From NCBI GenBank assembly GCA_015345905.1, contig JADDTR010000019.1, positions 1 to 64,000 of the forward strand: DNA of 64,000 bases, written 5' to 3'. This DNA is from Aotearoamyces nothofagi (taxonomy: Eukaryota; Ascomycota; Leotiomycetes; Leotiales; Tympanidaceae). The notes beneath the pieces are model-generated. The model was given only the letters and a program-made list of their open reading frames with translations. It was not told where the DNA came from and did no database searches. Position numbers and translations under genes: made by a program. Shown one piece after another: positions 19,727 to 28,870 of this stretch (positions within the stretch are counted from its first letter, which is position 1; each line of letters starts with the position of its first letter).

Positions 19727-22017
19727 TATATATTGATATATAAAGACATTAGCTTTAGCTCCGCGTTGATTTATTGTTTATCTATATTTCTATAAGACCA
19801 TATATGAAGCTATTGTAGTTGTTAGTATGCTTTTCTACTTAAATGTATCCTTAGAGAAATATTTTTTTTTTTTGTGTTCTTGGTAAATATGATAACTAAA
19901 AGAAACGAAGATGATAGGGCACTTGGGGATGTTTCTGTCGACGAGGAAACAACAATGGCAACCCGGGCTCTTGATGCTACCGCATAGTTGTGACTCGACA
20001 ATCTCAGCCCTGTGATCTCTAGTCTCCAAGCTTAGCATTTGTGAGACCTTATTCAGGAGCTCAAAACCGCATTCTTGTTTCAGCAGGTAGCATGCGACTG
20101 GCCGGCTTGAGCGATACGGTTTGACATGAACGTTTCACCGGTTACTCGGCAGGCATTTCTTGGCTCTCCAAAGCAAACATCGACATCTAGACTTTCCTGG
20201 CAATCAGACTTCTTTGGGAATCTCTCTTCTACCAGATGGGAAGCACCAGGCCGAAAAATACGCAGGGTTATTATATGGGATCCGGCCGAGCCCGACTGGG
20301 TCGCTGGTGACAGTTGACTTGCTTGGTGTCTGGGCCGAGATGGCATGTATCTGACACCGAAAGTTTGCTCCTAGGCGACATTTGAGGTTTTACTGTCCTC
20401 GTGGCCTATTCGTCCTCGTACTTATACTCCGACTGGTACAACAACGTCTTGTCCGACGTGTAGTTTCCCGTCAGTTCTGGAACTTTCGCTAACGCCAGCT
20501 TCTTCGGACCCAAATCAGTATTCCTACTTGTATCATTTCTTAGGCTTTGCTCCTTTATGCCGTTTTCGAAGTGAAGTCTGTCTGTCGCGTTATACGAAAA
20601 GTCGAGACTCGAAGTTTGCCATCCGGACAACAAAAAAACGCAATCATTTCCTGGTACTATTTCAGCATCGAGGCTGTAACAATGGCTATATTATAAAAAT
20701 GAATGTTTATATTTCAAGTTGTGTTGACATGGAGCGCGACGTCATTGTTTGCTTCCTGAGGCTCCTCACGTGACAGTATCAAACTCGACAGAAACGGATA
20801 ACAGCTCAGAGTACCGGCAAGTGGCAGCTCCTACGTTGCATTCCTCGAGCCTGATAGTCCCGAGTACAAAAATATAACTCTGTCAAAGCTTCAATGGCCC
20901 AGATCACAGATGGCAGCATAGTATTGCAAATTGCATACGGCATTACTGAGCTATCAGATATCATGGTGGTTATGCAGCAGTGCAACGAAGTCTTAGTCGC
21001 TATATCCTACTTTTAGAAAGGGACGTTTTGAAGAGGAATGTCTGTGGTAGTGAGGTCTTTCTTAATAAGCTGAAGAGGATTATGGTCTTAAAATAAAGGC
21101 TTCGCAGATTTGCCAGTATCACGACGGTACATCGCATATGGTTGAGCGAAACGCTTTTCACCTCCCAAGAAAACGGTCATATGTCTCATGTTAAACAAAC
21201 AGGCTCGAGCAATTTTCGAAGTCTGTTTCCTGCAGCTTTCTTTTGCTTCACATTCTCCATTTATCGCGTGCTGTTGCAAGGTCGAATACACCTTGATGGT
21301 ATCACCTCGGCCTTCTATGCCTTAGGTTAAATATGGTGGATTACGCACGGCACCCGCAGAATCCATGATGATGGGCCGGCCCTCGCCATTTTTTTTTTAC
21401 ATATTTCCTCACAGTTTCTTGCATATCAAAATGCTACAGCAACTGAGAAGGGCAGTATTACCAGTATCACCAGCAGTACCCAAGCATCTCATTTGTACGA
21501 CTTCGTGGCGCACGAGGGAATGGGAATCCTGTACGCGGAGAAAGGGGGCTCATCGTTTCTCGGGTAGCTTCTCCAAGGCTGGTCGGATGGCCGTCTCTAG
21601 TGCACGAGGCGGCTTGGATATTGCCTCGTTGCTGGATCGCCCCCTGTTATTCCCGGATTTGTAGAACTACAGGTGAGGTGGCCGTGCAGTGGATCTTAGT
21701 TGCACCTATTGTAGAACGGCCCCGAGACAGAGAAGAAGCTGATCAGCACGTGCAGAACGGCTGGTATCTGTTTCATATATGAGCTGAAGAGATCGTATTC
21801 GATCTCGTTCGAGTTGTTGTACGATACATATCAATTTCATCTTACTTCGTCTTTATTGCGTCTCGACGCGTGTGGCTTTCTGTGGACGAGATAACGCCTT
21901 CTGCACGGCATCTTATTCCTTGTCTCTCCTCTCTTTTTATCTTTGCGCCTCTGCGAGATATCTGTATTTAAGTCCAGAGGACCCCCTTGGCCACCGTCAA
22001 GTGTCCAACTTCCTAAG
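19727..22017. other. Intergenic region
   Basis: No recognised gene. A poly-T run lies at about 19861-19874. A 75-codon minus-strand frame (20633-20406) has a protein-like composition but no start context, homologue or splice partner that I recognise, so it is not called. The last ~150 bp before 22018 are pyrimidine-rich and likely the TmpA-like gene leader. Confidence 0.4.
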
Positions 22018-23367
22018 ATGGCTCTTACAGTTTCGAACGGGCGGGGTGCAAGAGAATCCCCTTCGCAGTCCAGCAGACGTTTCACGCGCTGGCTTCGCTC
22101 ACTCATTTCTGAATACAGGCTTCTCTTCACCCTCGTGTTTGCTCTTAATCTGGCGGGGGTTATCTGCTTTCTCTATGGCTGGTACATTACTGGCTCACCC
22201 AATGAAACAACATGTGCTCTAGCAACATCCGTCAACCTCGCCTTCTCTATCGTCATCCGTGAGGAACATGTGGTTAATCTTCTCTACACTATCTGTACTT
22301 CACTTCCGCCCAAAGCTCCATTATGGCTTCGTCGGCGCTTTGGAAAGATTTATCACCTTGGAGGTCTCCATAGTGGATGTGGCGTGGCAGCTACATTCTG
22401 GTTCATTCTCTACTCCATCGACACCGCCGTTCGTTTCATCCTGAAGACAAACCATGGCGCCGAAAACTGTATCATTCTTGTCATCACCTGCATCCTTGAT
22501 ATTCTTTTGCTTGCAATGGTCATCATGGCCCACCCTTCCCTCCGAGCAAAACTCCACAACGAATTTGAAGCCATTCACCGTCTCGCCGGCTGGTCAGCTG
22601 TGGCACTATTATGGACTCTCACAATCCTCGATACAGATTCCAAACGCGCTGCAATTACTACTCTCGCAAAAGCTTTATTCACCAGCGCCAACATCTGGCT
22701 CCTTTTCATCGCCACAGCTGGTATCATCATTCCTTGGCTTAACTTCCGCAAGATCGTTGTGCGCCCTGAACGTCTATCTACACATGCGCTGCGCCTCCAT
22801 ATCGACTACGTGACGCCGCAACCTGGGACCACCATCCGCATCTCGGATAGGCCGCTGTTTGAGTGGCATTCCTTCGCCACATGGGCCAGACCAGGCAAAG
22901 AAGGCTTCTCGCTCATAATCTCCAATGCGGGCGACTGGACGAAGAAACTTATCGAAGCCCCACCTAGCACCGTGTATGCACGCCGTACTCCCACCTGCGG
23001 TGTGCTCCGTATCGCACCTATGTTCCGTAGTGTCCTACTCATCGCAACCGGGTCTGGGATTGCACCATGTCTGCCCGTCATCATGGCGCAGCGCACACGC
23101 GTCAATCTCTTTTGGTCGACAAGAGATCCGTTGACGACGTATGGACCTGAGATCGGGGCTATTATAAAGGGTTTGGGCCAGACGGCGTATATTCATAATA
23201 CATCAACGATGGGACGTCCATCGATGCTGCCACAGGTGTTGCAGCTATATCGCGAGACCGAGTCGGAAGCTGTCATTGTCATTTCGAATCCAAAGTTGAC
23301 GCTAAAGCTCGTGCAGGATCTGGAGTCTTTGGGCATTCCGGCCTTCGGACCGATTTGGGACTCGTGA
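22018..23367 (+). CDS. TmpA-like integral membrane oxidoreductase
   Basis: Multi-pass membrane protein with a C-terminal FAD/NAD(P)-binding reductase-like half, similar to Aspergillus nidulans TmpA, which is linked to conidiation signalling. Intronless, 449 residues from the ATG at 22018 (context AAGATGG); an in-frame ATG at 21943 would add 25 residues. Hydrophobic helices include LLFTLVFALNLAGVICFLYG, GVAATFWFILYSI, IILVITCILDILLLAMVIM and ANIWLLFIATAGIIIPWLN. The soluble part starts near RPLFEWHSFATW, continues with a glycine-rich nucleotide-binding segment IATGSGIAPCLPVI and ends with AVIVISNPKLTLKLVQDL. The same domain is found at the C-terminus of some NRPS-like proteins, but no adenylation domain is nearby here. 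Substrate unknown. Confidence 0.8.
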   Translation: MALTVSNGRGARESPSQSSRRFTRWLRSLISEYRLLFTLVFALNLAGVICFLYGWYITGSPNETTCALATSVNLAFSIVIREEHVVNLLYTICTSLPPKAPLWLRRRFGKIYHLGGLHSGCGVAATFWFILYSIDTAVRFILKTNHGAENCIILVITCILDILLLAMVIMAHPSLRAKLHNEFEAIHRLAGWSAVALLWTLTILDTDSKRAAITTLAKALFTSANIWLLFIATAGIIIPWLNFRKIVVRPERLSTHALRLHIDYVTPQPGTTIRISDRPLFEWHSFATWARPGKEGFSLIISNAGDWTKKLIEAPPSTVYARRTPTCGVLRIAPMFRSVLLIATGSGIAPCLPVIMAQRTRVNLFWSTRDPLTTYGPEIGAIIKGLGQTAYIHNTSTMGRPSMLPQVLQLYRETESEAVIVISNPKLTLKLVQDLESLGIPAFGPIWDS

Positions 23368-26242: not shown

Positions 26243-28870
26243 TTACAAGGCACCACCACTCTTGGCGACACCTGGATAAGTGGACTTCAAATATTCAGTG
26301 AAGTCTGTACCGTTAATGCCTAAATCTTTGAGATCTGGGCAGGTGAGGTCCAAAAACGTGCTATCAATAATGTCCGTAATTAAGTCTAGAACAGGGGTGA
26401 TGGTTGCGAAGAGACTTGACAAGCTGTTTGGCACAAACTCCTTGACAAATTCGAGACCGAAACAGATCAGGTTGTTTCCTTCGAGAAGGTTGGATGCATT
26501 GAGGAGACCGCCAGAAAGATCTGAAATGTCAATACCAGTGAAGGTGTTTACGCCGTTCGTGTTGCCGCCAATGCTGAGAGGTGTCAGTGATTAATCATAG
26601 AATAGATGCGGCGCATGTACCTGAGGAGACGAGGGTACTTGGTAGCCCATGACACCAAGTCAACACCGTACGAGACAAAGGTATAGTCGCCAGATGGTCG
26701 GTACCAGATGTCAGGGATACGTTCCCAACCAACCTTGTAGGTGAAGTTTCCCTCCTCACCGTAGACTCCGAAGAAGCTCTTGAGGGTCTCCTTGCCTGGA
26801 AACTTGGTTAGATTCCATATCATGGAGCTTTGATATTACATACCAAGAATTCCTTCTGGATGCTCGGCAGAAGAGTTGGGGAAAAGGCGACCAGTAAAGG
26901 CATATGCGGCATTCCGAACAACGAGACCAGCAGAGGGACCGTAGAAGAAGTATGGGTTGCTAGCAATGCTTTGCTCGAAACGACGCTGGTTGTGTGCCAG
27001 TATGACGTCCATGTCGTAGTTTGGCTCGGTAGCGTTAATTTGCAGGTTGTACAAGTCCATAAAGTACGACATGTTCATATTGTTGTTGTCACCAACAGGA
27101 TCATAAAGGTCACCTCGAGTTCCAGATGCATCCTCTTCGAATTGGTTGTGCGTTCCTTGGAGGCCACGCGGTTCACCTATAATCTGTTAATAGGTGATCA
27201 TAAGGCATTTCATCTAGAATATCTTACCTAGGAGACCTCCTAGGTTGCCGAGGATGTTTTGCGACTCCGAGGACACGCCCCCCATAGAGACACCGGGCTG
27301 GAGCGAGATTGGGTTTCCACCTTCGACTGTACCATAGATTGCAAGAACAGTTGCAATATCGATACCCATGCCATAGACTAATCGTCGTTAGCATTAACAA
27401 CAATCAATGTCGAAATTGTTCTTACCTGCGTTGACTTGGGCGATGTATTCGGTGATCTACAAGGATGTAAGTATAAATCACAGACCTAGAATTCAGACTT
27501 ACAGTCGCAACACCATTGTGAGGAAGATAGCCATGATTCGCCAGAGCATTCAAACCAGGACAGGGACCACGAGTATCGCCATTTTCAAAGTCTGGTGCAA
27601 CAAATGCATGATTGCCCGTAACTATATGATTAATTAACTCTATATTCTAGAAACGAAGATATTCCCTCGTCAACAACACGATTCAAGCACACTACTAACC
27701 ATCAATGCGTTGGGCCTTGGCATCAAAAGTGGTCCGCTTCTCCTTTCCAAGAACAGGAAGTTCACCAGCCACGGATTCCGCGGCTCCAACGACGCCGCTT
27801 GCTGGGCGAAGAACCGAGCGTGCTTTACCGGCGATAGATCCAACGAGGCTGCTAGGAATGGCGTGGCCGGCTACAGACTCAACGCCGTCGACAACGTTTT
27901 TCTTCGTGAGTCTTTTGAAGGCATGTAAGGGGATAGCGCTCTCAATGTTGATGGTAGATTTAACAGTTGAGCTTGTGCTATCAACAATTTTGCCCGTCTT
28001 GTCGGTAACAGTGCCGATCACGTTCTTCTTAACTGGGAGAACACCCTCGACAGTGTCGACGGCATCTCCAGCAGCATCTTTAACGGATTCAACAGCACCA
28101 GTGTCAGGGTCTAAGAGGCTACGCCTGATAATGTCCGTAACAGCATCAAGAGGAACAACACCCTCAGCAGTGTTTACAAGGCTGCCAGCAGTATCAACGA
28201 TGCTCTTCTTGATGATGCTGGTGACACTATCAAGAGGAACAAGACCATTAACAGTGCCAAGGATATCGGCGTTGTCGAGGACTTCACGCTTAACACTCGT
28301 ACCGAGGGAATCAATTGGAATGAGAGTATTGGCCGTGTCTAGGACATCTCCGAGAGCTTCAGCAGCGACTTGTCCGCTAGTACCGATGATATCCTTCCTG
28401 ACGACTGAAGTGAGGCTATCCAGAGGAACCAAGCCCTCAGCAGTGCTGACAATGCCACCAACAGTGTTCACAACGGTGCGTCTAATGACATCCGTGAGCT
28501 GGTCAAGTTTAGCCCCACTAGCCAAGCCAGTAGCAGTGCCAACCACGTCACGTGGAACTTTGGGAATAATGTCTTCGACGATAGGACCAATTGAATCAAT
28601 TATATCTCCAACGGCCGGAAGTGGTGCTTCCCGCTTAGTATTGACGCCAGCGAGATCCGAAGCTGTCTCTGTGACACCACTGACGGTGCTGCCTACTGTC
28701 TCGAGAACAGATCTCTTGATGCCTACACCTGGTGCAATTTCGTCAATGATACCATTGATAGCATCCTCGAGACCTTCGATCTGGCGTCTGCCGTTAGTGT
28801 TCGCTGGTAGAGCGTTGACATGCTGCTCCACCAGGAGGAGTAACACGGACAAGTAGTGAAACGACTTCAT
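26243..28870 (-). CDS. Secreted heme-thiolate peroxidase with kexin-type repeat pro-region
   Basis: Chloroperoxidase/unspecific-peroxygenase family enzyme, predicted secreted. Seven exons (28870-27700, 27621-27503, 27456-27426, 27377-27228, 27176-26844, 26795-26621, 26573-26243) stay in phase to give 769 residues. Residues 1-20 are a signal peptide. Residues 28-379 are imperfect ~28-residue repeats, best seen at 131-158, 195-221 and 222-249, sharing GLVPLDSxT and ending in dibasic pairs (28-29 RR, 52-53 KR, 79-80 KR, 130-131 RR, 158-159 RK, 194-195 KR, 221-222 KK, 249-250 RR, 281-282 KK, 319-320 KR, 323-324 KK, 378-379 KR). The peroxidase domain then begins TTFDAKAQRIDVTGNHAFVA, with the heme-cysteine motif RGPCPGLNALANHGYLPHNG and an acid-base segment QFEEDASGTRGD matching the family EGD/EHD motif. 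Family members usually lack this repeat region. The exon 1-2 join is supported by the conserved sequence that spans it. Confidence 0.88.

Follow-up and report, generated by a model that had tools for sequence, protein, structure and literature searches.

Repeat precursors, heme-thiolate peroxidases and the layout of the locus

Kex2-processed repeat precursors (KEPs) have been reported in nearly all surveyed fungi (PMC6339444), and the heme-thiolate peroxidases, too, are a widespread group of fungal enzymes (PMC8772875). The closest layout that we found to the gene described here is that of Hum3 from Ustilago maydis, where 17 amphipathic imperfect repeats of 31–36 amino acids (aa), fourteen of them with putative Kex2 motifs between them, are followed by a hydrophobin domain (PMC4617103). 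The gene in question is located on the minus strand of contig JADDTR010000019.1 (C19) of the leotiomycete Aotearoamyces nothofagi, within a stretch of 64,000 nucleotides (nt) comprising positions 1–64,000 of the contig (the window), and it places an array of dibasic sites and imperfect repeats in front of a heme-thiolate peroxidase. This peptide-array layout before a peroxidase is well above chance and unusual. We suggest, with somewhat better than even confidence, that in this gene the propeptide of a secreted heme-thiolate peroxidase has grown into a Kex2-processed repeat precursor, such that processing would free the enzyme together with inert amphipathic peptides.

Like Hum3, the window gene combines Kex2-spaced amphipathic imperfect repeats with a subsequent domain of different function, but in Hum3 this domain is a hydrophobin rather than an enzyme, and the likeness is one of layout, not of sequence kinship. 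The order of repeats followed by a domain is therefore already known, and the window gene differs in having an enzyme as the domain. Rep1, also from U. maydis, contains twelve amphipathic repeats of 34–55 residues, from which Kex2 releases surface-active peptides (PMC4617103). It shares with the window gene the amphipathic repeats with Kex2 sites, its products being described as released and surface-active (PMC4617103, PMC2515848). In contrast to the window gene, no enzyme is described for Rep1, and its peptides form amyloid-like fibrils, whereas the units here appear helical without an excess of beta periodicity. The amphipathic repeats of ~31–55 aa with Kex2 sites that characterize Rep1 and Hum3 are found here as well, several units being 24–28 aa, although this is a resemblance in how the proteins would work and not in kinship.

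A published rule delimits KEPs by three or more repeats between KR, KK, RK or RR, each of 8 aa or longer and none above 100 aa (PMC7329392). By its spacing the window region falls within these limits, with ten units of 22–53 aa, five of which (units 4–8) are clearly alike. As in KEPs, three or more repeats are thus found between dibasic sites of a presumably secreted protein (PMC6339444, PMC7329392), but the commonest motif class in Dikarya comprises 9–24 aa (PMC6339444), whereas the units here span 24–55 aa with their pairs, are imperfect and have an enzyme behind them. The enzyme, in turn, has the Peroxidase_2 domain and PCP cysteine motif of heme-thiolate peroxidases and unspecific peroxygenases, and differs from those described in its 359-residue repeat pro region, in the 133 residues that lie past its Pfam match and in having E-E-D in place of E-G-D.

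No peroxidase behind Kex2-type repeats was found in the titles and abstract starts listed by searches of an open-access library, and the word ‘peroxidase’ is absent from the main texts of two KEP surveys (PMC7329392, PMC6339444), the supplementary tables of which may list the gene type unremarked. In one KEP survey, the C-terminal fragment is excluded by the pipeline at first, and its later check is limited to the known motifs (PMC6339444); for surveys of Kex2 repeats, it would be worth looking behind the last cut site. A gene that joins the two parts would provide a testable case in which peptides and enzyme arise from one chain at a fixed ratio. In addition, it would offer a leader of natural origin for enzymes of a class that has been described as hard to produce (PMC8868270).

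Evidence for a single gene

The coordinates, minus strand and gene model given in an earlier note on this DNA are upheld by GT-AG splicing and an intact frame (Table 1). Six introns of 46–78 nt, picked by eye and every one GT-AG, join the exons into an unbroken frame of 769 aa. We regard it as very probable that the repeat exon and the peroxidase exons belong to one gene, as the note had proposed, the in-frame splice and a match to the N-terminus of a sister peroxidase both arguing for it. This sister (L007 2783–4375, minus strand, contig C22) and the window gene are the two Peroxidase_2 genes found in the genome (25.5 Mb, 55 contigs), where five six-frame matches to Peroxidase_2 at two places represent a lower bound.

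Exon 1 ends with KEKR-TTFDAKAQRID and exon 2 carries VTGNHAFVAP. A local alignment of the window gene with the sister over KEKR-FDAxxQ-HAFVxP, which spans intron 1, has a score of 60 (shuffle mean 18.7), a value reached by none of 2000 shuffles. With the exon-1 residues alone, the score is 25 versus 13.3 and is reached by 17 of 5000 shuffles, or by 55 of 5000 when these residues are compared with the entire sister N-terminus. Since the end of exon 1 matches the sister enzyme, it is probably itself peroxidase sequence. Moreover, the first Met of exon 1 is its only Met, and exon 2 lacks an in-frame start codon between the last stop and the first conserved residues, so that no separate start for the enzyme is evident.

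A false join of two adjacent genes at intron 1 would find some support in the intron itself: it is the longest of the six, its donor GTTAGT differs from the usual GTAAGT, and its retention leads at once to stops. The exon-1 part of the sister match is also short. However, the match of KEKR-TTFDAKAQRID to the sister N-terminus, the absence of a second Met from exon 1 and that of an in-frame start codon from exon 2 run counter to such a fusion, which we consider very improbable.

We note two further features of exon 1. Retention of intron 1 would yield a secreted repeat-only protein of 391 residues, making a peptide-only isoform possible. In addition, an open frame of 383–384 codons runs antisense to exon 1 (27705–28856, plus strand); this is probably a by-product, as synonymous-codon shuffles of exon 1 reach its length in 4.4% of 500 cases.

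Dibasic sites lie in register with imperfect repeats

The twelve dibasic pairs counted previously are confirmed for residues 21–379, compared with a shuffle mean of 3.3, and none of 20,000 shuffles reaches 12. KR and RR sites alone number 8 where 1.4 are expected (P 0.0001). Pairs account for 24 of the 35 Lys and Arg residues of the pro region, and the enzyme part (390 residues) contains a single dibasic pair, at residue 555. The sites are in register with the repeats, with successive spacings of 24, 27, 51, 28, 36, 27, 28, 32, 38, 4 and 55 residues; the range of about 24–55 residues proposed before thus covers ten of the eleven spacings but not the one of only 4. Cutting at the pairs produces ten units of 24–55 residues with pairs (22–53 between sites) in addition to LPANTNGRR and LTKK. 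The last KR, which had been placed directly before the peroxidase domain, is positioned to free the enzyme, but 15 residues separate it from the Pfam domain, which starts with residue 16 of that part.

The residues following the 12 sites are QIEG, SVLE, EAPL, TVVN, DIIG, EVLD, SIVD, SLLD, NVIG, LTKK, NVVD and TTFD. Position P1′ is hydrophobic at one site in 12, in a region of which 31% is V/I/L/F/M/W/C, and P4′ is acidic at 6 of 12 (P 0.002, assuming independent sites). This context agrees with findings on fungal Kex2 substrates, where acidic or small residues are reported as over-represented at P1′, P2′ and P4′ (PMC2515848). Enrichment of the sites, their register with the repeats and the acidic or small residues after many of them together support the kexin-type layout that had been suggested. 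A kexin-type P domain is represented in the genome by one P_proprotein match (E 2.3e-16), which covers positions 1–57 of 86 and contains one stop inside the six-frame match.

From residue 130 onwards (27734–28480), KR/RR and KK/RK sites strictly alternate, a post hoc observation for which no significance is claimed. Cuts at KR and RR alone would divide this second half into pieces of 64, 55, 70 and 59 residues, the first three consisting of two units each and the last of LTKK plus unit 10.

The description of a signal peptide, here presumed from inspection by eye, followed by ~350 residues of imperfect repeats holds, with 359 residues and a similarity between units above that of shuffles. When the pairwise similarities of the ten units are summed, the total is 1443, whereas within-unit shuffles (n = 200) average 907 and do not exceed 993, and 25 of the 45 unit pairs reach P ≤ 0.05. 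Units 4–8 are clearly related, and units 1, 2 and 10 are weakly like the others. The GLVPLDSxT core, described before as shared, is present as exact GLVPLDS in two units and as variants in about three more, but not in all units. Because shuffling also destroys periodicity, the weak similarities may reflect a common helix period rather than descent. Tandem Repeats Finder detected no tandem array at the DNA level in the repeat exon, where direct repeats reach up to 79% over 48 nt.

Helix period and composition of the units

Between 60 and 180 degrees, the hydrophobicity spectrum of the ten units peaks at 100 degrees, the angle of an alpha-helix (2.12 versus 0.72 shuffled, z = 9, 0 of 300), and no excess is seen at the angles of beta-strands (160–180 degrees). 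Taken singly, seven of ten units have P < 0.05 at 100 degrees. The net charge of the units without their pairs ranges from 0 to −6. Tyr, Trp, Cys and Met are all absent from the 359 residues of the pro region, which contain one Phe and two His, whereas the enzyme part has 19 Tyr, 3 Trp, 3 Cys, 6 Met, 21 Phe and 6 His; N-glycosylation sequons number zero and six, respectively. The longest stretch free of Y/W/C/M in this protein comprises 404 residues and extends into both the signal peptide and the enzyme; among stop-to-stop open frames of the window with 200 codons or more, the next longest has 124. An aliphatic repeat alone may account for this composition.

The composition bears on the suggestion of the earlier note that the peroxidase might act on its own released peptides, which would constitute a one-gene system for modified peptides. 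Peptides and enzyme are indeed encoded in one chain, and in one survey 22% of Kex2 repeat precursors had a DUF3328 (UstYa-type) gene nearby (PMC7329392). However, the pro region lacks readily oxidised residues, so that the peptides are probably not substrates of the enzyme, and the only UstYa match in the genome lies on contig C4, with none on C19. On both grounds modification by the enzyme is unlikely, and we give the proposal next to no credence. A UstYa-type (dikaritin) precursor was rejected as well, with the UstYa match on another contig and the pro region free of Tyr.

The peroxidase part and its sister

The enzyme part matches the Pfam family PF01328 Peroxidase_2 with an E-value of 9.7e-45 (153.8 bits, cut-off 26.9), and its best relative among solved structures is 9rfy, named heme-thiolate peroxidase (E 1.4e-21). 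Heme-thiolate peroxidases are marked by an -X-P-C-P-X- motif with the heme-ligand cysteine and by an -X-E-G-D-X- cation motif (PMC4420034). Here, GPCPGLN aligns with the cysteine motif of solved enzymes, whereas their E-G-D aligns to E-E-D, and to E-T-D in the sister; activity of the enzyme, as peroxidase or peroxygenase, is assumed. The distal acid-base pair of such enzymes consists of Arg or His plus Glu, and of Arg/Glu in AaeUPO. What we take to be the AaeUPO Arg/Glu positions align to Ala/Ala in the window enzyme, in a part where the alignment is weak.

Both peroxidases found in the genome (26844–27176 for the window gene, and L007) seem to be without the AaeUPO-type Arg/Glu pair, on that same weak alignment, and both have a long C-terminal extension, the 133 residues past the Pfam match being alignable between them. 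The two possibly represent a subfamily with a different distal side.

The sister has a signal peptide and a ~32-residue propeptide that ends with KEKR and is followed by FDAASQYVSNQGSHAFVPP, all in one exon. FDAxxQ after KEKR is common to both genes, the enzymes of which are 47% identical. The model of the sister is provisional, because no GT donor is present at the junction before GPCPGLN, which was read as GC-AG. Since the propeptide of the sister also ends with KEKR, the repeats of the window gene occupy an ordinary propeptide position. As a source of the repeats, the sister propeptide was rejected (score 23 versus a shuffle mean of 23), and comparison of its first part with the first 60 residues likewise yielded no signal (P 0.21).

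Proposed processing and its alternatives

We propose that the signal peptide is removed and that kexin then acts in the late secretory pathway. A cut at KEKR, which we consider highly probable, would free the enzyme with the mature start TTFDAKAQ. Cuts inside the repeats are probable, if less assured; taking place at KR and RR first, they would release mostly acidic, aliphatic peptides with the character of amphipathic helices. Peptides from the first half would be 24–51 residues long, whereas the second half would give rise to the four longer pieces described above if only KR and RR are cut, or to peptides of 27–55 residues plus one of 4 if KK and RK are cut too. That the peptides have a function of their own is possible, but we lean slightly against it. 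More likely than a role as substrates of the enzyme is that they coat or wet the surface of the hyphae or an adjoining hydrophobic substrate, in the manner of Rep1 and Hum3, or aid secretion of the enzyme; the case for the surface role consists of the analogy to these two proteins and the helix period. In a bolder version, a peroxygenase-type enzyme would come from one transcript together with surfactant peptides that are proof against oxidation and present in fixed multiple. These peptides would wet or coat the hydrophobic working surface of the enzyme, and retention of intron 1 would give a peptide-only form; we regard this version as distinctly improbable.

An enlarged, Kex2-processed propeptide is supported by the gene model, the KEKR alignment with the sister, the enrichment and context of the dibasic sites, the similarity of the repeats, their helix period, the kexin-type P-domain match and the lack of sequons in the pro region as opposed to the enzyme. 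In addition, nonsynonymous divergence (dN) is below synonymous divergence (dS) in 19 of the 19 computable pairs, out of 21 formed by units 4–9 and the end of unit 3. The open frame through the splice sites, the repeats, the site enrichment, the helix period, the composition and the common KEKR are seen in the sequence, from which we infer splicing, cleavage, peptide release and surface activity. Several observations weigh against this reading. KK or RK makes up four of the 12 sites, and these pairs are poor Kex2 substrates. P1′ is acidic at just 3 of 12 sites (P 0.19), and the sites are not independent of each other, because the units look like duplicates. The repeats are imperfect, the outer units are only weakly alike, and, taken singly, units 4 (P 0.060) and 9 (P 0.081) miss the 0.05 level for the helix period, which unit 6 (P 0.98) does not show. 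Modelling of exon 1 with AlphaFold from a single sequence gave no information, the predicted local distance difference test score (pLDDT) being 34. The alignments for dN and dS were selected by protein similarity, which biases dN downwards, and several dS values are near saturation. Finally, exon 1 has no relative beyond itself in its own genome, also with a shorter query, and none of its 17 pattern matches in viral_contigs was confirmed.

Exon 1 has one sub-threshold match in Pfam (DUF7217, E 0.1) and two in NCBIfam, and no match to solved structures up to E 1. With the alignment of the peroxidase pair, none of 43 pattern matches in genome_contigs and 103 in viral_contigs was confirmed, and the enzyme has no match in plasmids. 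As none of these three collections consists of fungal genomes, the misses in them are uninformative on related fungi.

The main rival holds that the repeats are an elaborate propeptide and nothing else, aiding folding or secretion or silencing the enzyme until kexin acts, with the fragments being degraded and functionless. It would agree with the short sister propeptide and its identical KEKR end, and with the C-terminal propeptide of chloroperoxidase, which has been proposed as an intramolecular chaperone (according to a title cited in PMC9769878). For such a propeptide, however, one site would suffice, rather than the 12 that are present in register with the repeats. In addition, the units look constrained at the protein level, subject to the bias of dN given above, and the propeptide of the sister shows no detectable kinship to the repeats. 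We consider this rival unlikely, although it is to be taken seriously. Alternatively, the amphipathic repeats could form an uncut or partly cut stalk by which the enzyme is held at the wall or at a hydrophobic surface, which would suit the amphipathic helix period and the share of KK and RK among the sites. The excess of canonical KR and RR sites and the occurrence of KEKR right before the enzyme in the sister as well speak against a stalk, to which we attach little probability. The enlarged propeptide that is processed into enzyme and peptides thus remains the reading that we favour.

Table 1. Features of the repeat-peroxidase gene, with positions in the window
Feature	Positions	Strand	Basis
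Whole coding region, 7 exons, 769 aa	26243..28870	minus	GT-AG splicing by eye, unbroken frame; Pfam Peroxidase_2 on spliced enzyme part
Exons 1–7	28870-27700, 27621-27503, 27456-27426, 27377-27228, 27176-26844, 26795-26621, 26573-26243	minus	
Presumed signal peptide, residues 1–20	28811..28870	minus	Sequence; cleavage point by eye
Repeat/pro region, residues 21–379 (359 residues), 12 dibasic pairs, without Y/W/C/M, without N-glycosylation sequon	27734..28810	minus	
Unit 1, residues 30–53, ends KR	28712..28783	minus	
Unit 2, residues 54–80, ends KR	28631..28711	minus	
Unit 3, residues 81–131, ends RR	28478..28630	minus	
Unit 4, residues 132–159, GLVPLDS core, ends RK	28394..28477	minus	
Unit 5, residues 160–195, TLIPIDS core, ends KR	28286..28393	minus	
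Unit 6, residues 196–222, GLVPLDS core, ends KK	28205..28285	minus	
Unit 7, residues 223–250, GVVPLDA core, ends RR	28121..28204	minus	
Unit 8, residues 251–282, ends KK	28025..28120	minus	
Unit 9, residues 283–320, ends KR	27911..28024	minus	
Unit 10, residues 325–379, ends KEKR	27734..27898	minus	
KEKR before mature enzyme, common to sister peroxidase on contig C22	27734..27745	minus	
Intron 1, 78 nt, donor GTTAGT	27622..27699	minus	Gene model; retention gives immediate stops (RIDG, then two stops)
Heme-thiolate peroxidase part, residues 380–769, GPCPGLN cysteine motif and E-E-D-A-S motif	26243..27733, introns included	minus	

Surroundings in the window

The Pfam scan of the surroundings covered 25 other open frames of the window, 21 of them from the 39 of at least 150 codons (a number that includes exon 1 and its antisense frame) and four that are shorter. 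The neighbours identified in this way include a sugar transporter, a UDP-glycosyltransferase, a fungal rhodopsin-domain protein, Sey1, RNase HII and CENP-C/Mif2, as well as an aspartyl protease, GH76, a group 1 glycosyltransferase, a DEAD-box helicase, fructosamine kinase and RXT2. No hint of a peptide biosynthesis cluster was found among the 25 scanned frames, a survey in which unscanned frames and multi-exon genes may be missed.

The protease matches in the window are to Aspergillus-type, endothiapepsin and Trichoderma enzymes, as would suit a filamentous ascomycete. A search of the genome for 5.8S RNA yielded a single weak match (44.7 bits, gathering score 42), and 5 of 14 control genomes exceed the cut-off as well. 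About 3 kb from the peroxidase gene, a 490-codon frame for a membrane protein (21895–23364, plus strand) has no match among solved structures and shows very weak matches to FAD-binding_8 (E 0.05) and NAD-binding_6 (E 0.14); we presume that it may encode a TmpA-like oxidoreductase.

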